From a virus: 64,000 nt of DNA. The DNA is taken from positions 1-64,000 of IMG/VR virus record IMGVR_UViG_3300036846_001111. One strand, 5' to 3'. The position numbers were made by a program, and so were the translations under genes. This document shows, piece after piece, positions 2,441-48,954 of the stretch. The notes below the pieces were generated by a model. That model was not told the DNA's origin, did no database searches, and saw only the letters and a program-made list of their open reading frames with translations. Position 1 is the stretch's first letter. The number at the start of each line of letters is the position of its first letter.

Positions 2441-3355
2441 TCAGGACGTCGGATAGCTTGCCCAACCAGAGCGCGGGTTGTAGTAAGCAAACGAATAGCG
2501 TTCGTAGGCCTTCACAAGTAGATTGTCAGTAATGAAATCGACTTGCATGTCGGTCTCGAAAGCAACGCGGGTCATATAGCTGAGCCCGTCGATGTTCGTC
2601 AGCAGGAACCACGCGAACGGCGAGGTGAGGAAGTCCATCACCATGTAGCCTTCGGGCAGGCCGCCCGAAGTCGAGTGGATGGCGTTGACGTCGTTGTCGG
2701 CGGTTCCCGGCCGCAGTTCGGTCTTGATCAGGCGGACCATGACCGGCTCAAGCTGCGGCGGCCCGATCAGCTTGCGCGCGCGGCTGAACATGCGCAGGCC
2801 GGCCTGATCGCGGAACTGGGTCCGCACGGAGATCATGCCGTTCAGCAAGGACGCCTCGTTGAGGTCGGCCGGGGTGGCGGCGATGTTCGAGTAGACCCCG
2901 CCGTCGATCGGGTGGTTCGGCGCGAACAGCGCCACGCCGTCGCCGCCGATGGTCTGGTCGTAGACCTGCCCGGTATTGAGGACGTTGGCGCCGTAGAGTT
3001 CCTTGGTTTGCTGGTAGCTCTCGACGAGGCCCAGGTTCGACGGCTGGAACTGGCTCTTGTAGAGGTTGTCGTCGATCGACTTGCGGGTCATCGCGTACCC
3101 GAGGCCGATCTCCCTGTGCTCCTGATTGAACACGAAGCGCTCGCCAGCCGCATTGTCGAACTGGGTCTGGCCGCCCTCGGTCTTCAGTTGCGCGAGGCCG
3201 AGGTAGCGCATCTCGGCGGTGCGCTCCAAGGCCATCTTCGACGTGTGCCGCGTGAAGACTTTGTCCCACTGCGACGGAATCTGTTCGTACTTGCCTTCGA
3301 TCCCGCGAAGACCGGGGAGGAGCAAGTCCTTGATGGCGGCTAGATTGACTGCCAT
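2441..3355 (-). CDS. Major capsid protein, HK97 fold (Mu gpT-like)
   Basis: 304 aa, ATG at 3355. It should form the icosahedral shell. Visible features are a helical N-terminus typical of capsid subunits (LPGLRGIEGKYEQIPSQWDK), a central NHP motif in ALFAPNHPIDGG near residue 165, and a C-terminal barrel-like end with YERYSFAYYNPRSGWASY, a signature close to the Mu gpT class of HK97-fold capsid proteins. It has no N-terminal delta/protease extension, which fits the separate scaffold gene at 6138-7145. It sits immediately after a Gly-rich putative decoration protein gene. Family assignment is from motif memory. Confidence 0.85.
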   Translation of the reverse strand: MAVNLAAIKDLLLPGLRGIEGKYEQIPSQWDKVFTRHTSKMALERTAEMRYLGLAQLKTEGGQTQFDNAAGERFVFNQEHREIGLGYAMTRKSIDDNLYKSQFQPSNLGLVESYQQTKELYGANVLNTGQVYDQTIGGDGVALFAPNHPIDGGVYSNIAATPADLNEASLLNGMISVRTQFRDQAGLRMFSRARKLIGPPQLEPVMVRLIKTELRPGTADNDVNAIHSTSGGLPEGYMVMDFLTSPFAWFLLTNIDGLSYMTRVAFETDMQVDFITDNLLVKAYERYSFAYYNPRSGWASYPTS

Positions 3356-5418: not shown

Positions 5419-6138
5419 CTATACGTCGGGCACCGGAATCTCGACCGGGCTGTAGGTGGTCCGCACCCGGGCGGTGGGTTGGCCGCTCTGGTCGACGCGG
5501 GCGAAAGTGCCCTCGGGGCCCTCGTTCAGTTGCCGCTCCTTCAGCTTCACCGCGTCGCGGGCGCGCCGGTACATGATCTGCTTGACCCGGTCGGTAATCG
5601 CCTTCGGCCGCTCCATCAGGATGAGGCCCTCGCGCTCGATCGGGCCCCGGTGGCCCTTCGGCATCATCGCCGGATGGCGATCGGCGGGCACCGTTTCCCA
5701 GCCGGTCCTGGCGAGGCGGCTGTCGTAGGAGGGGTCGGATTTTCCATAGACCGTCGAGCGCTTCCACTCGTAGCTCCAGCCATCCGGCACGGCGATCCCG
5801 TCGAGGCTGAGTTCGTCCGGCCCCTCGTCGAGCGCCCCCTCAAGGTGGCCCATGATCTCGGCGGCGCGCCGCTCGGCGCGGTCGCGCGAGGTCTCGTCGC
5901 GCGAGGAGTCGGCGCGCATCTCGGGCCGCGGATCGCCGCGCGGGTCCTCGCGCTGCATGCGATCGGGGTGACTGATGGCGTTGAGCGCGACGCCGTCCTG
6001 TGGCTCAGCTTTTGTTTCACGTGAAACATTCGGCTTGGCCGCGGCCGGCTTCGGGCCGCCGTTGACCCCCTTCAGGAGGGCGTCGACGTCGGGCTGACCA
6101 CGCTGGCGGGGGCGGCGGGTGGGGGTCTTGGCGACCAT
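5419..6138 (-). CDS. Virion-region protein of unknown function carrying a parS site
   Basis: 239 aa, ATG at 6138 overlapping the scaffold stop (TGATG). The N-terminal 95 residues are charged and probably disordered. The C-terminal part is conserved-looking (GWSYEWKRSTVYGK near residue 122, then REGLILMERP near residue 169) and resembles podovirus proteins of unknown function coded beside the scaffold. The codons for VSRET (about residues 39-43) form a perfect parS sequence, described separately. The residues around it are otherwise disordered, so the site need not be kept for protein function. Confidence 0.6.
   Translation of the reverse strand: MVAKTPTRRPRQRGQPDVDALLKGVNGGPKPAAAKPNVSRETKAEPQDGVALNAISHPDRMQREDPRGDPRPEMRADSSRDETSRDRAERRAAEIMGHLEGALDEGPDELSLDGIAVPDGWSYEWKRSTVYGKSDPSYDSRLARTGWETVPADRHPAMMPKGHRGPIEREGLILMERPKAITDRVKQIMYRRARDAVKLKERQLNEGPEGTFARVDQSGQPTARVRTTYSPVEIPVPDV
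6013..6028. promoter_or_regulatory. parS: Perfect chromosomal parS centromere site
   Basis: TGTTTCACGTGAAACA, a 16 bp perfect palindrome, is identical to the canonical bacterial parS bound by chromosomal ParB. It lies in frame in the disordered N-terminus of the 239 aa protein (5419-6138). A given 16-mer is expected about 0.00002 times in 64 kb. No other copy and no parA or parB gene was seen in the window, so any binding would rely on host ParB or on genes outside the window. Confidence 0.9.
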
Positions 6139-7145
6139 CAGTTCAACCTCCCCTCGCGCTTCAGGATCAGCATGTTGCGGGCATAGGCCTGCTCGCTCTT
6201 GCGCCCGGTCGGGTCCTCTTGAAGCTCATCGGGGAAGAGGTCGCGGGCGGCCTCGCGCTGCTCCCTGTTGAGGGTGACGCGGGTTGGGCTCGACCCGCCG
6301 TTGGCGCGGCTGACCGGCGCGGCCGGCGGGGCCTTGGGTCGGGAATCGGCCACTGGCGTCCTTTCTTCGACAAAGCCCGGCCTGGGCGCAGCAGCGGGCT
6401 GCCCGCCCAGGCCGAGAGTACGCTCCACGTGAGCGATGTACTCGGGAGAGTCGAGCGCCAGCCCCTCGCCGGCTGCGGCATAGTGGGCGCTCATCAGCTT
6501 GGCGTTCAGGCGCGTGTCGGTGACGTACTGCGGGTGGCCGCGCACCCAGGCGGCGGCATTCGGCGAAAGCTGCGAGGCCACTGCCTCCACCTGCTGGTCG
6601 GCCGACGGCGGCGGCGGCGCGGCGCGCGGCTGCTCGCGCGGCTGCGCCTTCAACTGCTCCAGGCCGCTTTCGATCTGGCCCTCGCGCTGGGTCTGGCGGC
6701 TGATCTCCACCTGCAGGTCGGCGACCGCGCTGAAGTCCTGCACCGCGTAGGCCTCGGCCAACTGGCTCTTCAGGATGCCGATGCCCTGCCTGAGACCACC
6801 CAGCGCGGTCTCCAGAATCTGCACGTTGGCGGCGTCGGCGGCGCCGGTGGCCTGGGTCCTGGCCTGCTCGGCGGCGCTGGCGCGCTGGTTGGCCTCCTGG
6901 GTCGCCCGCTCGGACGCCTGCAGGCGCGCGCGCAACGCCTCGATCCCCTCATCGGCCGGGATTTCGCGCGTTGGTTCCGGCGCAGGCGCGCGGGACGTCG
7001 GCTCGGCCGGCGCACCATCCTCGGCGTGGTCGATCTGGATGTCGTCGTCGGGCGGCGGCGGCCGGTGCTCGCGGGTCCGATCGGGGAGCGGCTCGCGCTC
7101 CAGTTCCTCAAGCGCCAGTTCGACGGAATCGTCGGGGCCAGCCAT
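6138..7145 (-). CDS. Putative capsid scaffolding protein, 335 aa
   Basis: It has the build of a phage scaffold: an acidic Pro-rich N-terminus (to about residue 65), a long Ala/Gln/Glu coiled coil (about 68-175, with ALRARLQASERATQEANQ), a Pro-rich linker, and a charged C-terminus with NREQREAARDLFPD (about residue 298) that could contact the capsid. It lies between portal and capsid genes in the usual order. It is terminally coupled to the 239 aa gene. The assignment rests on architecture and gene order, not on a specific signature. Confidence 0.65.
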   Translation of the reverse strand: MAGPDDSVELALEELEREPLPDRTREHRPPPPDDDIQIDHAEDGAPAEPTSRAPAPEPTREIPADEGIEALRARLQASERATQEANQRASAAEQARTQATGAADAANVQILETALGGLRQGIGILKSQLAEAYAVQDFSAVADLQVEISRQTQREGQIESGLEQLKAQPREQPRAAPPPPSADQQVEAVASQLSPNAAAWVRGHPQYVTDTRLNAKLMSAHYAAAGEGLALDSPEYIAHVERTLGLGGQPAAAPRPGFVEERTPVADSRPKAPPAAPVSRANGGSSPTRVTLNREQREAARDLFPDELQEDPTGRKSEQAYARNMLILKREGRLN

Positions 7146-7148
7146 CGC

Positions 7149-7364
7149 TCACTCTCCGAAACGGATTTCCCCGCCCGGCCCGATGCTGATCGGCCGGAAC
7201 AGGGCCGTGTCCTGGCGCGCGTTCATCACCGCGGTGATGGTGGCCGCCAGGATCATCACCTTCATGTCGTCGCTGAGCATGATCTTCAGCCCGGCGCGAT
7301 CGCGGGCGTCCATCAGCGTGATCAGCACGCTCTCGGTGAAGCGCGCGAGGTCGGTTTCGTCCAT
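7149..7364 (-). CDS. Small protein, 71 aa
   Basis: ATG at 7364 overlaps the GroES-like stop (TGATG). A start two codons upstream (7370) is also possible. The sequence is helical and slightly acidic (MDETDLARFTESVLITLMDARDRAG). The family was not recognised. It sits between the scaffold and the co-chaperonin. Confidence 0.6.
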   Translation of the reverse strand: MDETDLARFTESVLITLMDARDRAGLKIMLSDDMKVMILAATITAVMNARQDTALFRPISIGPGGEIRFGE

Positions 7365-7753
7365 CACCACACCAAATCCGGGTGCTTCACCCGGCCCTTC
7401 ACGTCGACGTCGTCGACGATGCGACAGGCCTGCCCGTTGAGGGTGCAGGCGACGCTGTCACTGACCCGGTAGAACACCCAGTCGCCCTCGCCCATGTCCT
7501 CGGGCCACGTCCACTTAGCGTCGCTTTCGAAGGCGTGCGGGCCGCACTTCAGGATGAGCCCGATCTTGCCCTGGTACTTGTCCTCGTCGACGTTCGAGTA
7601 GGGCCGGATGATGCCGCCCTTGGTGCGCTCCGGGGCGATGTAGACGGCGCACAAGACTTGGTTGTGAAAGATGTCGACGCCGTCGATGTCGCCGACCGCC
7701 TCGATCAGCTTGGCTTTCGGATCGACATCGTGCGCGAACGCGGTTGCGGGCAT
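7364..7753 (-). CDS. GroES-like co-chaperonin (Cpn10 fold)
   Basis: 129 aa, ATG at 7753 with GAGAGG upstream. It matches the Cpn10 layout: VLCAVYIAPERTKGGII (residues 33-49; the family has VLVRP..EEKTKGGI and the mobile loop here), a G-x-I-x-L-K-x-G turn, GDWVFYR (about 91-97), then LNGQACRIVDDVDVKGRV, the typical C-terminal strand pair. Known Cpn10 proteins cap GroEL, and phage versions such as T4 gp31 help the host chaperonin fold the capsid protein. Its place between scaffold and portal genes fits a capsid-folding job. It has a 15-20 residue insertion before the GDWV strand. Confidence 0.75.
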   Translation of the reverse strand: MPATAFAHDVDPKAKLIEAVGDIDGVDIFHNQVLCAVYIAPERTKGGIIRPYSNVDEDKYQGKIGLILKCGPHAFESDAKWTWPEDMGEGDWVFYRVSDSVACTLNGQACRIVDDVDVKGRVKHPDLVW

Positions 7754-10010: not shown

Positions 10011-12461
10011 CTAGTCCGAATCCCCACCCTTGTCCTTAGCGGCCGCCGCGGCCTGGATTTCCGCCTGCCGCACGTCAGCCGAGCGATCGAGGGCGTTCTC
10101 GCGCTGCTCGTGGCCGTGCTCCATCTGGGTGGTGGCGACGTCGGTGTGGTGCGCCAGGATCGCCTTGACGAGGTCGACCCGGTCGGAGTTGGCCTCGGCC
10201 TGCCGGTCGGCGGCGCGATCGCCGCTCTGCTCCTTCATCTCGGCGGCCTTGAAGCCCACCTGCTTTTCCCGGGTCTTGGCGTCCATGCGGCGGGTCTGGG
10301 CGTCCATCAGCTTGGCGTGGGTCTCCAGCGCGTCGAGGTGGTTGGGCTGCGCGTCGGCCTTGCCGAAGCCGCCCTGCTGAATCTTCGCCTGGGTCTCGGC
10401 CAGCTTCGCCTTCGCCACCTGGGCGCGCGCCTGGGCGTCCATGGTCTTGGCGTCGGCCTGCTGCTGCTTGGCCTTCATCTCGGCCTGCATCTGCTGCAGT
10501 TCGGGCGGCGGGTTGGCCATCGCCTGCGGCGGCACGAAGAACTGGCTGGGGTCGTTGATCCCCATGGTTTTCAACACGTAGGTGTCGACGGCGATCGGGT
10601 CGTAGAGGCTCTGGCTGGTGCCCTGAAGCTGCTTCAGCCCCATCGCCTTCATCGCCCGGTGCAGGTGGCTGGCGGTGTTCGGATCGGCCTGCGGGACGAG
10701 GTCGCAGGTCTGGATGGCGGTCAGGAAGGTCTGCTCGGTCCAGGGGTTCTGGCTCGTCTGTTCGAGGTTGAGGAAGTCCTCCGGGTGCTCGCGGAAGCAG
10801 GCCACCAACAGCTTGAACTCCTCGGCCTGGGAGGCGTGCAGGCGCTTGTGCACCGAGGACTCGATCTTGGTGGCCTGCTCGATCAAAGCGAGGGTGGTGC
10901 CGACCGGCGCGTCCTGGCGCCCCTCGCCGACCTGAATCTCGGCGGTGCCGCCGATCCGCGCGCCGGTGGTCGCCATGCCCTCGACGAGGCTCATCAGCGC
11001 CGGCATCTGCTGGGTGTTGTAGGGCAGCGGCATCACCGACTGGTTGATCGGCTTGCCCAGCGTGTCGATCGGCTGACCACCGCCGGGCGGCACCCGGATG
11101 ACCGTGGTCTGCTGGCGGGTGGCAGATTTGGCGATGAGGAATCCCGGGAAGTTCGCGTACATCCCGTTGTCGAGCATCTCTCGCCAAGCAGCCGTGATGG
11201 CGTTCGTGGTATTGCCGAGGATGTGACCCAGGCCAAGATCATAGAAACCGAAGCCGGGGACGTAGGAATACTTGACGAACGTCTTGCGCTTTTTGGGGAG
11301 TTCATCATCGGACTTGGGCTCGTCGTAGTCCCTGACCAGCGCCAGCACCTGCCGGCTGGTGCGGTCGATGGTCACCCGGTAGGGAATCTCCAGCCCGGAG
11401 TCCTTGCCCTTCCACTGGTGCTCGTAGCCGACGAGGTCGAGGTCGCAGTAGCACTCGTAGAGGTCGCGATCGCGATCGTCGGGGTTCTGCACGTCCTCGG
11501 CGATGCCCTGCTGGCGGCGCGCCTCGCGCTCGGCCTCGTTGAGGTCGCTCTGCAGCGGCGCGCCGAGGTCGACGTCGCGGTAGGCGCCGATGATCTGCAT
11601 GCGCTTGATGGTGGTCGGCGACATGCGGATCGCGTGGGTGACGCGCCGCGCGTTGGCGAGGTCGGTGGCGTCGTTGGAGACGATCAGTTCGACCGCGGTC
11701 ACCGTCTCGGAGACCGGCCGCATTCTGAGCGGACAGCGATAGATTTTCTTGAAGGTGGTGCCTTCCAGGCCGAGGCGGAAGTACATCCGGTCGGTGTCCG
11801 GGTAGTACTCCGTCGCATGCGCCGTAAGGTAGTGGTTCATGTCGCTTTCGAGCGCGTCGGCCAAGAGCGCCTGCTGCGCCTGCCACTGGCTGTCGTCGCG
11901 CACCTTCACCGGCCCGTCGGTCGGCAGCATCTCGGCCCGCGCGTTGGCCTGGAAGCGCAGGACCGCCTCCAGCAGCAGCGGGTGGCGCACCTTGCTCATG
12001 CCCTCGACCGGGGCCGAGTCGGCGACGCCGCCGATGTTCGGCACCTCGATGGTCACCCCGATCAGCTTGATGAAGGTGGCGACGGTGTCGATCCAGTCCT
12101 TGCGGCTGGCAATGTCGTCGTCGATGCCGCGGATCAGGTCTTCGGCGATCGTGCCAAGCTGGCCCTCGTCCAAGTCCTCGGCGAGGTTGGCGAACCAGTC
12201 CTGCGGACCCCGGTTGTGGCCGATCCCGTAGAGCGGCTTGTCGTTGACGCTGATGGTGACCGAGCCGTCGCCGTGCTCGATCGAGAACACCTCGCCCTCG
12301 GTGTTGACCTGCGGCGCGTCGGCGTCCTCGTCGGGGTCGACGTCGACGACGATGTCGTCGTTGGCGCTGCTGACCGGCGCCGGCGAGACCAGCCGCAGGT
12401 TGGCGCGGCCGAAGCCCGAGCGCGCCATCTGGCCGGCGCCGAGGGTGGGGCGGCGCGCCAT
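10011..12461 (-). CDS. Portal protein
   Basis: 816 aa, ATG at 12461, directly following the upstream stop. It should form the dodecameric DNA gateway at one capsid vertex. It has the traits of large podovirus portals: an acidic N-terminal tail, a wing region with repeated Asp/Glu stretches, a stem/clip with PGFLIAKSATRQQTTVIRVPPGGG, then a crown with ATTGARIGGTAEIQVGEGRQDAPVGTT, and a long C-terminal Gln/Ala coiled coil (about residues 640-800) like the P22 portal barrel. The position between terminase and scaffold fits. The 170-residue helical tail is long for the family. Confidence 0.85.
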   Translation of the reverse strand: MARRPTLGAGQMARSGFGRANLRLVSPAPVSSANDDIVVDVDPDEDADAPQVNTEGEVFSIEHGDGSVTISVNDKPLYGIGHNRGPQDWFANLAEDLDEGQLGTIAEDLIRGIDDDIASRKDWIDTVATFIKLIGVTIEVPNIGGVADSAPVEGMSKVRHPLLLEAVLRFQANARAEMLPTDGPVKVRDDSQWQAQQALLADALESDMNHYLTAHATEYYPDTDRMYFRLGLEGTTFKKIYRCPLRMRPVSETVTAVELIVSNDATDLANARRVTHAIRMSPTTIKRMQIIGAYRDVDLGAPLQSDLNEAEREARRQQGIAEDVQNPDDRDRDLYECYCDLDLVGYEHQWKGKDSGLEIPYRVTIDRTSRQVLALVRDYDEPKSDDELPKKRKTFVKYSYVPGFGFYDLGLGHILGNTTNAITAAWREMLDNGMYANFPGFLIAKSATRQQTTVIRVPPGGGQPIDTLGKPINQSVMPLPYNTQQMPALMSLVEGMATTGARIGGTAEIQVGEGRQDAPVGTTLALIEQATKIESSVHKRLHASQAEEFKLLVACFREHPEDFLNLEQTSQNPWTEQTFLTAIQTCDLVPQADPNTASHLHRAMKAMGLKQLQGTSQSLYDPIAVDTYVLKTMGINDPSQFFVPPQAMANPPPELQQMQAEMKAKQQQADAKTMDAQARAQVAKAKLAETQAKIQQGGFGKADAQPNHLDALETHAKLMDAQTRRMDAKTREKQVGFKAAEMKEQSGDRAADRQAEANSDRVDLVKAILAHHTDVATTQMEHGHEQRENALDRSADVRQAEIQAAAAAKDKGGDSD

Positions 12462-13151: not shown

Positions 13152-14936
13152 TCAGCCCACACCGGGATAGAGCGGCTCTGGCGGGCGCGAGTATTGCTTG
13201 GCCGCGTCGATCTCCGCAAGCCGTTCGGCCGGCAGCTTCAGAATCCCGCGGTCGCGCAGGTGGCGCAGCGCCTGGGAGACGGTGTCGACGAGGTCGTCGT
13301 GCTTGCCCTTGGGGAAGCTCTCGCACTGGCGCGCCACTTCCTCGGCCCAGATGCGGAAGGTCGGCTGGCCCGGCGAGCTTGGGGCGTAGACGATGCCGTC
13401 GCGGGTGGGGACGAGGATCGGCGCGCCGCTGATCGGGTCGCGGACCACCTTGCCCTGCACGTCCTTCCGCTCGGTGAGTTCCGGCGCGAAGAAGGGGACC
13501 ACGGAGTGCAACCGGGAGACCTTGTCGGTCGACTTCGGGTCGTTGAGTTCGACGCCCCAGTGCTCCTCGGCGTAGAGCCGCTGCATCTCCTGGCTGACGC
13601 TGATGCCGGATGCCTTGTTCTCGATGAGCAGGAGGTCGACCTTGTAGCGCTTGCAGGTGTCGGCGGCGGTGGTGACCAGTTCATGCAGGGCGAGGCGCTT
13701 CTGCCAAGCGTACATCAGCATGACCTTGGCGCTGGGCTCGTAGAAGTTGCGCTCGGCGAGGTAGACCGGGCGCCCGTCGTGGTCGATGTAGCGGCCCGGG
13801 ATCGCCTCGATCGAATGGGACCAGACGCCCCAGACGGTGATGGCGGAAAAGTCGTTCTCGGTCTTCTCGGTGTAGGCGGTGTCGAGGCTGGCCAGCACGA
13901 AGTCCATCGGCGGGTAGCCGGCCGCCTCCCACGGCATCCACCACTCGTATTTCACGATGCCGCCGCCCTTCGGCTTGGGGCTCTGCTCCAACTGGCCGGC
14001 GGCGCCCCATGGGCCGAGGGTGCGTTCGAGGGCCCTGACCGCCGGCTCGGGGAAGCGCGTGGGCCACAGGAGTTCGCCCTCGCCGTCGCCGCCGTTGCGT
14101 TGATCGCGGGGGTCGGACCAGCCGATGGAAGTGTAGTAGAAGCGCTGCGGGTCGTAGTGCATCGGCAGTATAAGATTATCCCACTCGCCGATCTGCTGCT
14201 CCAGCACGTGTCCGGTGAGGTCGTTCTCGGCGAGGCGCTGCTGGATATTGATGTATGCGCCAGATGAGGGGTCGTTGAGGCGGGTGCTGGCGGTCTGATC
14301 CCACCACTCGATGACTTCCTCGATCGCCGCGTCCGAGTTGGCCTCGTTGGCGGCGTTGGCGTCGTCGATGACGAAGATGTTGCCGCCGAAGCCGGTGGCG
14401 GTGCCGTTGATCGAGGTGACGAGGCGCTCGCCGCCCTCCGAGTTGGCGAAGCGGTGGGCGCTGGATTCGTCGCTTAGGAGGGTGAAGCGCTGGTTGGGGC
14501 CGGCGAGGGCGCCCCAGCGCTGCTGATACCAGCCGGTGTTGATCAGGCGGCGGTTGCGGAGGCTGAAGCGCAGGGAGAGCTTCTCGGCGTAGCTGGCGTA
14601 GACGAACTGCACGGCCGCGCCCGACGTCGGGCTGTCGTGGTCAGGCGGCTGCGCCCACACCCAGGCCGGGAAGCAGACGCTGCAGAGCGTCGACTTGCCG
14701 CTCCTGGGGGGGATGTTGATGTTGAGCCGCTTGATCTGGCCGTCGACCACCGCCTCCAAGTGCTCGGCGATCGCCTGCAGCGGCCAGCCCGGGCGGAAGG
14801 GGGCGGGGTCGATCTGTTTCCAGGCCTGCTTGGTGAACTTGTAGAAACTCTCCTCGCAGTCGAAGCGGGAGAGGTCGATCCGCTGCTCGGCGGGATCGAT
14901 CCTGATGTCACCGAAGTCGAGGAGCGGCATCGACAT
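13152..14936 (-). CDS. terL: Terminase large subunit
   Basis: 594 aa packaging motor and nuclease. The ATPase domain has Walker A PPRSGKST (about residues 76-83) and Walker B NIFVIDDA (about 186-193). The RNase H-like nuclease domain has LDTAYTEK (about 351-358), LLIENKASG (about 436-444) and KHDDLVDTVSQAL near residue 550. ATG at 14936 is preferred because family members begin shortly before a helix like the SFYKFTKQAW helix seen here. A GTG at 15107 overlaps the upstream stop but would add 57 Arg/Pro-rich residues with no family likeness. It works with the small subunit at 15767-16384 and the portal. Confidence 0.95.
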   Translation of the reverse strand: MSMPLLDFGDIRIDPAEQRIDLSRFDCEESFYKFTKQAWKQIDPAPFRPGWPLQAIAEHLEAVVDGQIKRLNINIPPRSGKSTLCSVCFPAWVWAQPPDHDSPTSGAAVQFVYASYAEKLSLRFSLRNRRLINTGWYQQRWGALAGPNQRFTLLSDESSAHRFANSEGGERLVTSINGTATGFGGNIFVIDDANAANEANSDAAIEEVIEWWDQTASTRLNDPSSGAYINIQQRLAENDLTGHVLEQQIGEWDNLILPMHYDPQRFYYTSIGWSDPRDQRNGGDGEGELLWPTRFPEPAVRALERTLGPWGAAGQLEQSPKPKGGGIVKYEWWMPWEAAGYPPMDFVLASLDTAYTEKTENDFSAITVWGVWSHSIEAIPGRYIDHDGRPVYLAERNFYEPSAKVMLMYAWQKRLALHELVTTAADTCKRYKVDLLLIENKASGISVSQEMQRLYAEEHWGVELNDPKSTDKVSRLHSVVPFFAPELTERKDVQGKVVRDPISGAPILVPTRDGIVYAPSSPGQPTFRIWAEEVARQCESFPKGKHDDLVDTVSQALRHLRDRGILKLPAERLAEIDAAKQYSRPPEPLYPGVG

Positions 14937-15766: not shown

Positions 15767-16384
15767 TCACACGTCGCCTTCGTCCGGCGGCTGACGATCG
15801 GCGAGCGGCCCGTCGGTCCAGACGGCGTCGACCGCGTCGTCGTCGTCTGCGTCGTCGGGCGGCGGGATCAGGCCGGCGGCCTGCGCCTGGGCGAGCAGCG
15901 CCCGCAGCGCAGCGCGCCCGGCGTCGTCGAGCACGCGCGCGTCGACCACGTGGCGCACCGTCTCGGTGACCACGGCGTCGACCTTCAGCGCGCGCTCGGG
16001 CTCGGCGTAGGTGCCCGACTGCCACGCCCGCAGCAGCCGCATCCGCGTCTCGATGCGCAGCTTGGAGCGCAGCACGGCCTCGTTGTTGAAGCGCCAGCCG
16101 GTGGGCTCACCATCGTGGTCGCGCGTCTCCATCCAGTCGTTTGTGCCGTCGTCGGCGATCTCCAGGCACTCGTGCGCCAGGGCGTCCCAGCCGAGTGATC
16201 GGGCCGCGGCGAGGTCCTCACTAAACTCAGGGTCGGTTGACTGCCACTGGTGCACACACTGGCGCGTGATATTGTTGGCGCGGGCCGCAACCGAGAGCGG
16301 TGTTCCGATACTCAAGGCGACCAGAATGTCGCGCTTGATTTCGGCCTCGTTAGAGCGCCGAGGCCTGCCGCGGTGTGTACTCAC
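15767..16384 (-). CDS. terS: Terminase small subunit
   Basis: 205 aa DNA-recognition subunit of the packaging motor. The GTG start at 16384 is chosen because GGAGGG lies 7 nt upstream; an open frame to 16591 exists but has no ribosome site. The N-terminal HTH (IKRDILVALSIGTPLSVAAR, about residues 15-34) is followed by the typical oligomerisation part (DLAAARSLGWDALAHECLEIADD), and a C-terminal acidic tail. It is the first gene of the leftward structural run. Confidence 0.85.
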   Translation of the reverse strand: MSTHRGRPRRSNEAEIKRDILVALSIGTPLSVAARANNITRQCVHQWQSTDPEFSEDLAAARSLGWDALAHECLEIADDGTNDWMETRDHDGEPTGWRFNNEAVLRSKLRIETRMRLLRAWQSGTYAEPERALKVDAVVTETVRHVVDARVLDDAGRAALRALLAQAQAAGLIPPPDDADDDDAVDAVWTDGPLADRQPPDEGDV

Positions 16385-16420
16385 GGTTGAACCCTCCTCG
16401 CTACTTTCGGTGCACCTAAA

Positions 16421-16730
16421 ACTCTGTCCCGTCGTAAGCTCTTGATCCTGCAGGCCTTTTTGGCGTTTTGGGACAGAGTGGACAGACGGGACGCCGTTCT
16501 CCCAAGAAGGGCATGCGTTTTTGAAATGCTCCTGCGGGCGCGTAGCGTCAAATAATTGACGTCCGCGGATAGGCCTGCGCGGCCCCCACAAACAGGGCCA
16601 CCCGTCCTATCGTCCGCCCAAAGCCGACTTTTATCCTGTGCGCGTATATACTGTCCCATCTGTCCCTTTGTCCCATAGCAATAAAAACAACGCCTTGACC
16701 GGGACAGACTGGGACAGACCCGGGACAGAC
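16421..16730. repeat. Cluster of GGGACAGA repeats, candidate operator or origin iterons
   Basis: Copies: ACTCTGTCCC (16421-16430) and its inverse GGGACAGAGT (16470-16479), a second partial copy GGACAGACGGGACG just after it, three inverted copies CTGTCCC/CTGTCCC/TTGTCCC spaced about 9 bp (16651-16674), and three direct copies GGGACAGAC (16701-16730) spaced 10-11 bp, that is one helical turn. Only this intergenic region has them. This pattern is typical of binding sites for an oligomeric regulator or replication initiator. Confidence 0.8.
16645..16673 (-). promoter_or_regulatory. Possible late promoter toward terminase
   Basis: Minus-strand TATATA (16650-16645) has GGGACA as a weak -35 with an 18 bp spacer, and the spacer is made of the GGGACAGA repeats. 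If active it would transcribe the terminase genes with a 260 nt leader, and binding of a factor to the repeats would control it directly. The -35 match is poor. Confidence 0.3.
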
Positions 16731-18917: not shown

Positions 18918-19811
18918 ATGAAGACCGACGAACTCTTCCGCACGATCACCGACCGCATCGTCGCCCAGATGGAAGCCGGCGTGCGGCCGTGGGCGCGGCC
19001 CTGGTCGGAGCGCACCACGGCGGCCGACTACGCGCTGCCGCACAACATCGCCGGGCGCCCCTACCGCGGCGCGAACATGTTCTGGCTGGCGATGGCGCAG
19101 AGCGCCCGCGGCTACACCTCGCCGGTGTGGCTGACCTTCAATCAGGCCAAGAAGGCCGGCGGCAACGTCAAGAAGGGCGAGGTCGGCACCCCGGTGTTCT
19201 TCTGGAAGTTCGACGAGAAGGTCGACCCGAAGACCAAGAAGAAGACGAAGACGGTGTGGGCCAAGGGCTACACGGTGTTCAACATCGCGCAGGTCGAGGG
19301 CGTCAAGGTCCCGGCGCGCCGCGAGCGCACCGCCGCCGAGCGCCACGCCGAGGCCGAAGCGCTGATGGCCTCGACCGGCGCCGACATCCACTTCGGCGGC
19401 AACCGCGCCTGCTTCATCCCGGCGCTGGACATGGTGCAGCTACCGGTGCGCGAGGCCTTCAAGGCGCCCGATTTCTTCTACGCCACCGCGTTCCATGAAC
19501 TGGGCCACTGGACCGGCCACAAGACCCGGCTCGACCGCGAGTTCGGCAAGCGCTTCGGCGATCAGGCCTACGCCTTCGAGGAACTGGTGGCTGAACTGAC
19601 CGCGGCCTTCGTCACCGGCACCCTCGGCCTCGCCAACCCCGAGCGCGAGGACCACGCGGCCTACCTGACGAACTGGCTGCAGGTGCTGAAGGGCGACCCC
19701 AAGGCGTTCATCACCGCAGCCGGCAAGGCCCAGGCCGCCGCCGACTACATCCTGGCCAAGGCCGAGGCCAGCGACGAGGACGTCGACGCCGACCACGCCG
19801 AGGCCGCCTAG
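18918..19811 (+). CDS. ardC: ArdC-type antirestriction protein
   Basis: 297 aa. ATG at 18918 follows AGAGGAG; an upstream in-frame start lies inside the -10. The N-terminal domain (about 1-135) is the ArdC ssDNA-binding type, with PHNIAGRPYRGANMFWLAM and a KKGEVGTPVFFWKF core. The C-terminal zincin domain has HELGHWTGH (193-201) with a further Glu in EELVAELTAAF (about 221-231) as third metal ligand. Known ArdC proteins protect incoming DNA from type I restriction. The gene has its own early promoter, which suits protection at entry. The protease activity of the family is inferred from the motif. Confidence 0.88.
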   Translation: MKTDELFRTITDRIVAQMEAGVRPWARPWSERTTAADYALPHNIAGRPYRGANMFWLAMAQSARGYTSPVWLTFNQAKKAGGNVKKGEVGTPVFFWKFDEKVDPKTKKKTKTVWAKGYTVFNIAQVEGVKVPARRERTAAERHAEAEALMASTGADIHFGGNRACFIPALDMVQLPVREAFKAPDFFYATAFHELGHWTGHKTRLDREFGKRFGDQAYAFEELVAELTAAFVTGTLGLANPEREDHAAYLTNWLQVLKGDPKAFITAAGKAQAAADYILAKAEASDEDVDADHAEAA

Positions 19812-38352: not shown

Positions 38353-38597
38353 CCGAGCGTTTTGTGGCCATCCGCGGCGACGTCTGGGACCAGACGACGA
38401 TGCCGGCGCGCCGCCTGCATCTGGACGATGCGCGCGCGCTCGCTGACACGTGGCGGCGCGAGGCCGAGGCCTGCCGCCAGAAGGGCGCCTACGATCAGGT
38501 CAAGCTGTGGTCGGGGCCCGCCGCGTTGCTGGTCATAGCGATCGACTCGGCCGTCGTGCAGCGCCGCATGATGGGCTGGAAGGATACCGCGTCGTGA
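38349..38597 (+). CDS. Hypothetical protein, 82 aa
   Basis: GTG at 38349 overlapping the previous stop (GTGA), behind GAGGGGTGG. A Trp/Arg-rich helical region (DDARALADTWRREAEACRQK) is followed by a hydrophobic helix (LWSGPAALLVIAIDSAVVQR). The family was not recognised. The next gene overlaps by 4 bp. Confidence 0.55.
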   Translation: MTERFVAIRGDVWDQTTMPARRLHLDDARALADTWRREAEACRQKGAYDQVKLWSGPAALLVIAIDSAVVQRRMMGWKDTAS

Positions 38598-38776
38598 GCC
38601 GCGAGACCCAGAAGCAGCGGATCGCGCGTCTCGACTGGGCGCTCACCGAGATCACCCGGGTAACGGCGATCCCGGCCAACAAGCGCGGCGATCTCGACTG
38701 GCTGCGCGCCGCCTGCAGCCTCGCCCATGTCTACGCCAAGGCCGGGCGGGCGCCGCCCCCGGAGCCGCCGCCTTGA
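38594..38776 (+). CDS. Hypothetical protein, 60 aa
   Basis: GTG at 38594 overlapping the previous stop (GTGA). Basic helical protein (KQRIARLDWALTEITRVTAI) with a Pro-rich end. It is coupled to the next tiny gene by TGATG. The family was not recognised. Confidence 0.5.
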   Translation: MSRETQKQRIARLDWALTEITRVTAIPANKRGDLDWLRAACSLAHVYAKAGRAPPPEPPP

Positions 38777-48683: not shown

Positions 48684-48758
48684 TGGCCCTTCCCCGAGGG
48701 TTCGAACCTCAATTCCTCGGACCAAAGCCGAGTGTCCTACCGATTAGACGAGGGAAGG
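48684..48758 (-). tRNA. trnQ: tRNA-Gln, anticodon TTG, with encoded CCA
   Basis: 75 nt on the minus strand. The acceptor CCTTCCC (5') pairs perfectly with GGGAAGG (3'), then G and an encoded CCA at 48686-48684. The D arm is GTCT...GGAC with loop AATCGGTA, the anticodon arm CTCGG/CCGAG with loop CTTTGGT (anticodon TTG), and the T arm TGAGG/CCTCG with loop TTCGAAC. All parts fit the cloverleaf. It reads Gln codons CAA and, by wobble, CAG. It lies between the late minus-strand genes and the convergent plus-strand genes. Confidence 0.95.
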
Positions 48759-48795: not shown

Positions 48796-48954
48796 TTAGG
48801 CCTCTTCTTCGTGGGCCTCTTCGGCCTCTTCTTCGTGAGCCTCCTCGGCCTCCTCGGACGCTTCGGCGCTGGTGGCCATGTCCTCGGCGGGGGCCTCGAC
48901 CTTCTCTTCGGTCATCGGCTCGGGATGCTCTTCGTGCTCGTGGGTTTCGCTCAT
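48796..48954 (-). CDS. Glu/Ala/His-rich acidic protein, 52 aa
   Basis: ATG at 48954 with GAGGAG upstream; a longer in-frame start has no ribosome site and odd composition. Very acidic with a tandem repeat (EEAHEEEA twice) and His-rich N-terminus (MSETHEHEEHPEPMTEE). Probably disordered. Function unknown. It is the last gene of the right-hand minus run before the tRNA. Confidence 0.55.
   Translation of the reverse strand: MSETHEHEEHPEPMTEEKVEAPAEDMATSAEASEEAEEAHEEEAEEAHEEEA

Follow-up and report, generated by a model that had tools for sequence, protein, structure and literature searches.

At parS, ParB is loaded onto DNA as a clamp in a CTP-dependent manner; it also recruits SMC and acts in concert with ParA. 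Phage P1 and other phage-plasmids are plasmid prophages that encode their own partition proteins (ParABS), and IMEX phages use host XerCD at dif sites for integration by recombination. Chromosomal parS sites of the ParABS type are described for B. subtilis, Caulobacter and Hyphomonas, as is the role of SMC alongside ParB; the Caulobacter parS consensus is t/cGTTt/cCACGTGAAAca (PMC7022226). The P1 prophage ParB is mentioned in PMC12704722. With an engineered lambda-parS, ParB foci form on injected and on replicating phage DNA (PMC13190303).

The present analysis concerns the window, the first 64,000 nt of an IMG/VR virus record of 71,886 nt (71.9 kb), and related phages. The sites in these phages have the 16-bp palindrome of chromosomal parS unchanged and tolerate variation at the same two positions, 5 and 12 (PMC7022226), but they are phage-borne, lack an accompanying ParB gene, are not near a chromosomal origin and often lie beside terminase genes. 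As in P1-type ParABS, a putative centromere is located on phage DNA; unlike in P1, domain searches detected no ParB, and published work describes the cultured relative as lytic. As with IMEX phages, a mobile element seems to copy a short chromosomal maintenance site and would thereby exploit host machinery, but the site here is one of segregation, and the window proteins compared gave no sign of integration. The engineered lambda-parS with CFP-ParB is similar in that ParB is seen on phage DNA as foci, except that both the site and the labelled ParB were introduced by experimenters (PMC13190303). The clamp biology of ParB and the lambda-parS foci together lead to the proposal that these phages may nucleate host ParB on their own genomes. 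No precedent for a natural phage parS serving host ParB was found in the open-access literature searched.

The parS site and its gene in the window

The features of the window that bear on this proposal are as follows.

6013–6028, no strand assigned: perfect chromosomal-type parS, TGTTTCACGTGAAACA, 16 of 16 positions matching, conserved in L122, L123 and L128
6007–6028, minus strand: 22 bp, TGTTTCACGTGAAACAAAAGCT (parS plus AAAGCT in the minus-strand reading), common to the window, L122 and L123
5419–6138, minus strand: gene for a 239-aa head-region protein (ORF P0001), with the site at codons 37–42; homologue of HTVC023P gp38
6138–7145, minus strand: gene for a 335-aa neighbour, weak match to HTVC023P gp37
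7364–7753, minus strand: GroES-like co-chaperonin
2441–3355, minus strand: major head protein (phrog_371), downstream of parS
10011–12461, minus strand: portal protein, SU10 type (phrog_1216)
13152–14936, minus strand: terminase large subunit, TerL (phrog_38); related phages carry parS beside this gene
15767–16255, minus strand: terminase small subunit (phrog_1482)
38594–38608, plus strand: internal control, the peptide VSRET coded GTG AGC CGC GAG ACC

A perfect parS had been claimed at 6013–6028 in an earlier note on this DNA, and the site indeed has no mismatch to the canonical 16-bp parS and falls within the set TGTTYCACGTGRAACA that defines the chromosomal palindrome. It is the only such site: no second parS with up to three mismatches occurs in the 64-kb window, and no further one with up to two mismatches in the whole virus record. 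Dinucleotide shuffles (n = 100) yielded a mean of 0.02 sites with up to three mismatches. The rarity stressed in the earlier note therefore stands, but its figure of 2e-5 does not, as base composition (GC about 0.69) gives a still lower expectation of about 7e-7 exact matches per 64 kb.

In the minus-strand open reading frame, parS is read as N-V-S-R-E-T in the context ..KPN-VSRET-KAE... Its description as lying in a disordered, weakly constrained stretch of a virion-region protein agrees with a pLDDT of about 45–50 around residues 31–60, which predicts disorder at parS, with a length-variable N-terminal part among relatives, and with the position of the gene, which is downstream of portal and TerL and between the genes for the GroES-like and the major head protein. 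Structure comparison of the protein gave no informative fold, returning only uncharacterised phage proteins and chance PDB matches.

The record is that of a tailed phage, with large and small terminase subunits, an SU10-type portal and a major head protein; other genes in the window include PrimPol-VapE, RecT, an exonuclease and an ArdC-like gene (18918–19811, matching anti-restriction protein phrog_7245). A short acidic HEEEA-rich open reading frame adjoining a tRNA-Gln gene is present at 48796–48954 and 48684–48758. No integrase was found among 20 window proteins compared with PHROGs or 10 compared with Pfam, and no near-identical DNA among cultured phages. The parS gene, the gene preceding it and the GroES gene match HTVC023P gp38, gp37 and gp36 in this order, with 27–29% identity over short stretches, and the window TerL is 26–27% identical to that of HTVC023P and 25% to that of HTVC027P. 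The phage thus appears to be a distant relative of HTVC023P-type pelagiphages, matches of this kind not establishing membership of that group. Matches of the parS-gene family in bacterial genomes consist of 11 draft-genome contigs from mixed, unrelated taxa, mostly metagenome-derived, which are probably misbinned phage contigs; being uninformative, they were dropped for host assignment. The TerL relatives suggest an alphaproteobacterial host.

Relatives of the gene and selection on the DNA

Relatives of the parS-gene protein were found at 310 viral loci, the best 80 of which were examined. Three of them (L122, L123 and L128; 72, 65 and 62% protein identity to the window protein) carry the identical 16 bp in frame and at the same place, once per record, with VSRET in the N-terminus. 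Both VSRET and parS are absent from the seven other high-GC relatives (L124–L127 and L129–L131), whose records include fragments. The search of related genomes at the same place, as the earlier note had suggested, thus recovered the site in part of the family. Among the best 80 of the 310 relatives, 3 exact parS-like sites, 6 with up to one mismatch and 11 with up to two were present, against control means of 0, 0 and 0.1, respectively. A tighter DNA pattern, combining parS with a conserved motif of the gene, was found just in L122, L123 and L128. In the tree, L128 is the first to branch in the high-GC clade, which is compatible with an old site. Monophyly of the parS-bearing relatives was considered, but the tree requires three changes of parS, with which one old gain followed by losses and repeated gain both fit.

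Codon usage provides evidence of selection on the DNA. The parS codons GTT TCA CGT GAA ACA have usages of 2.1, 3.0, 4.1, 17 and 1.8% in this genome, and with the codon usage of the phage itself the joint probability of writing this peptide in these five codons is about 8e-8; the same peptide at 38594 is coded by the alternative set listed above instead. Calculated per genome, the probability is 8e-8 for the window, 1e-8 for L122, 8e-8 for L123 and 6e-7 for L128. When the four genes are aligned by codon, A/T-ending codons shared by all four occur nowhere but in the five codons of parS. The N-terminal sequence around parS is diverged and length-variable among these four phages, and the flanks of the four sites are mutually unlike outside 16–22 bp, the six additional bases AAAGCT being kept in the window, L122 and L123. 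Judged from these codons, selection is acting on the DNA at parS, beyond the peptide. The rare codons kept in four phages, together with the variant set in TerL relatives (see below), indicate a sequence maintained by selection as DNA.

Recurrence of parS in other phages

An exact-site scan of IMG/VR detected at least 120 parS loci, compared with 10 for a composition-matched palindrome and 4 for a palindrome with one symmetric change relative to parS. Most of the contigs are fragments. This excess is a lower bound, and some of the contigs may include flanking host DNA or come from phages that encode ParB themselves; in 28 records checked, ParB_N matches were present in 4, above the cut-off in 3. 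The argument therefore rests on the relatives of the gene and the relatives of TerL and not on the excess in the whole collection.

BLAST of parS-adjacent open reading frames revealed that many loci share a TerL matching phrog_38, the same PHROG as the window TerL, and another parS-linked protein matches portal phrog_1216, again the PHROG of the window portal. The best 80 relatives, by protein similarity, of the TerL of one such locus (L006) form a Pelagibacter-phage-like group; as L006 was itself found via parS, this set is centred on a carrier, though its members were not picked by parS. Perfect parS was present in 33 of the 80 loci and a site with up to two mismatches in 46, mostly 71–325 bp upstream of the TerL match, whereas 40 permuted palindromes gave 0 sites within one mismatch and a mean of 0.175 within two. 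Where the sequence extended 340 bp or more upstream of TerL (70 loci), 34 loci had a site in that stretch, spread over 9 of 20 TerL clusters. The set TGTTYCACGTGRAACA accounts for 58 of the 63 sites (35 symmetric TTC/GAA, 18 symmetric TCC/GGA and 5 mixed), indicating that the phage sites vary at the half-site position at which host parS varies, and mostly in both halves together, as a site for a symmetric dimer would. The same set occurs in 117 of 200 genomes of one bacterial phylum, usually in a few copies and often within some kb of one another, and a reversed control had 0 matches.

Among the best 80 TerL relatives of the window phage itself, 15 perfect sites are present in 5 loci, with up to five per locus; no site with exactly one mismatch was found in this set and most loci have no parS. 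Relatives of the gene thus support the idea at the core of the earlier note, that a phage without ParB offers a host-type parS to host ParB, as does the recurrence of the site, in exactly the host variants, among phages whose terminase and portal are of the same kind.

The cultured phages closest to the parS-bearing L006-type TerL group are pelagiphages, with 61% TerL identity for HTVC027P. This phage has CGTTTCACGTGAAACA at 16412–16427, in the gap between gp31 and gp32 and between the small and large terminase genes, and this variant, which matches parS at 15 of 16 positions, fits the Caulobacter consensus (PMC7022226). In published descriptions HTVC027P is a lytic phage whose latent period lasts about 18 h (PMC11066056; PMC12753301). 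parS with up to two mismatches is absent from HTVC023P, 023Pt_psg01, DSL-LC04, Roseobacter phages CRP-901, CRP-902 and CRP-810, Paracoccus phage Pkon1 and MW202675, showing that the trait is patchy.

Several other arrangements of the palindrome were observed. Four or five perfect parS lie upstream of TerL in L016 (2657–3444), L043/L381 and L404, with irregular spacing like that of a chromosomal centromere cluster. The records of L062 and L023 (GC about 0.7; 64 and 35 kb), in which ParB_N had no match, contain perfect parS clustered in about 650 bp, three in the former and two in the latter. Microviridae-like contigs, grouped by a Phage_F-matching capsid protein, contain one perfect parS each (L005, 3842; L025, 1966; L075, 2536), which in L005 and L075 is about 100–170 bp from the 5' end of a gene for about 300 aa. 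In L091 (7754) and L108 (3397), of a different phage group, parS is at the same place in a primase-like gene with diverged flanks. One 23-kb contig (L406 and L409; IMGVR_UViG_3300037423_000235) bears TGTTACACGTGTAACA, a palindrome that resembles parS but for one symmetric change, in several copies, possibly as a partition array of its own.

Proposed recruitment of host ParB and alternative explanations

The absence of a ParB gene from the phage, as the earlier note had it, was borne out by domain searches: PF02195 (ParB_N) and PF17762 (HTH_ParB) had no match in records G000, G001, G002 and G007 or in HTVC027P. ParB_N is absent from the window record, those of L122, L123 and L128, HTVC027P and most other records checked, and HTH_ParB from 13 of 13 records. 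Sub-threshold matches were seen to ParB_N in G072 (L252) and, ParB_N-like, in a 380-aa open frame in the record of the parS-less L130 (G009:C1:47677–47814). Since a gene for a ParB-type reader was not found, this role would fall to host ParB.

In the proposed mechanism, the site at 6013–6028 would be a functional orphan parS. Upon entry and replication of the phage genome, host ParB, a CTP-dependent DNA clamp, would load at parS and spread along flanking phage DNA, resulting in a segrosome on phage DNA without phage-encoded ParB. Host ParA and ParB-recruited SMC might then position, separate and condense the replicating phage DNA for packaging, which is the most likely use, and titration of host ParB from the chromosome might arise as a by-product. 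We infer ParB binding and all these downstream steps. Based on the sequence comparisons, which support it strongly, recruitment of host ParB to a phage parS that is under selection is considered likely, a judgement that covers recruitment and no particular use. Among the possible uses of recruited ParB, positioning and condensation would lead, with somewhat less than an even chance; titration or a cell-cycle block and late-gene control are each a good deal less probable and equal to one another, and other uses slightly less so again. Of placement near the host origin, passenger maintenance and disturbance of segregation, which had been named as uses, passenger maintenance is least favoured because the 11 mixed draft-genome contigs are probably misbinned and HTVC027P, the one cultured relative found to have a parS-like site, is lytic according to its description (PMC11066056).

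The main alternatives accept a protein at the site and differ in its consequence. ParB-like regulators are able to repress or time transcription, and parS could be an operator, bound by host ParB or by a protein of the same specificity, through which the terminase and head genes are repressed or their transcription timed. Like titration of ParB, late-gene control is counted as a real rival, in its case because parS occupies the 5' region of TerL in one TerL clade. Phages of the L276, L278 and L311 kinds carry sites immediately ahead of TerL, in some cases two of them spaced 24 bp apart, below TATAAT-like boxes. However, parS is inside a coding region among the head genes in the window, L122, L123 and L128, no promoter-like site was found near the window parS, which fits a centromere better than an operator, and arrays span about 1 kb, reaching several kb from TerL. 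The operator reading is thus regarded as unlikely, as is, to the same degree, a decoy function in which replicated parS copies titrate host ParB and ParB-linked division regulators, halting segregation or division irrespective of phage positioning. For such a decoy, a single site per genome would suffice after phage replication, arrays of up to five parS exist, and division in Caulobacter and Hyphomonas is linked to ParB and parS (PMC7022226); but many sites would be expected where most genomes have a single one, and the preference for the terminase-adjacent place is left without explanation.

Explanations that do without host ParB fare less well. The palindrome could serve a phage protein, as a packaging start site or as the target of a phage repressor or nuclease, and merely resemble parS, in keeping with the many parS near terminase genes. 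This is improbable, since the sequence varies only within the set known from host parS, other palindromes of equal composition do not occur, the position varies (the window parS is about 7 kb from TerL) and no gene for a ParB-type reader was found. A generic hairpin or terminator was ruled out by the same absence of same-composition palindromes. Least probable is chance, or passive capture of a functionless host parS fragment, for example from gidB, in which parS has the same NVSRET reading. The patchy distribution and the in-frame VSRET, one of two open frames of the parS motif, would suit such an origin, but rare codons are kept in four diverged phages, the four sites have dissimilar flanks beyond 16–22 bp, and the excess over control palindromes is massive.

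Recruitment of host ParB thus remains the preferred explanation. The parS-bearing phages include relatives of phages of abundant ocean bacteria, and lytic viruses probably recruit the chromosome-sorting machinery of the host to their own DNA. A wider reading, in which several lineages of lytic phages, including relatives of the abundant HTVC023P-type pelagiphages, run their own DNA through host ParB, ParA and SMC via orphan centromeres, is held with slight preference. If true, it would add a class of host takeover that has not been described before, in which segregation joins transcription, replication and translation among the host processes that lytic phages commandeer, by means of a 16-bp site and no gene. 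Such phages would be findable through a pattern search, and HTVC027P on Ca. Pelagibacter HTCC1062 would be a ready experimental system. The effect of ParB and SMC on replicating and packaging DNA would then come into question, and so would the possibility that ParB availability shapes infection in slow-growing marine bacteria.
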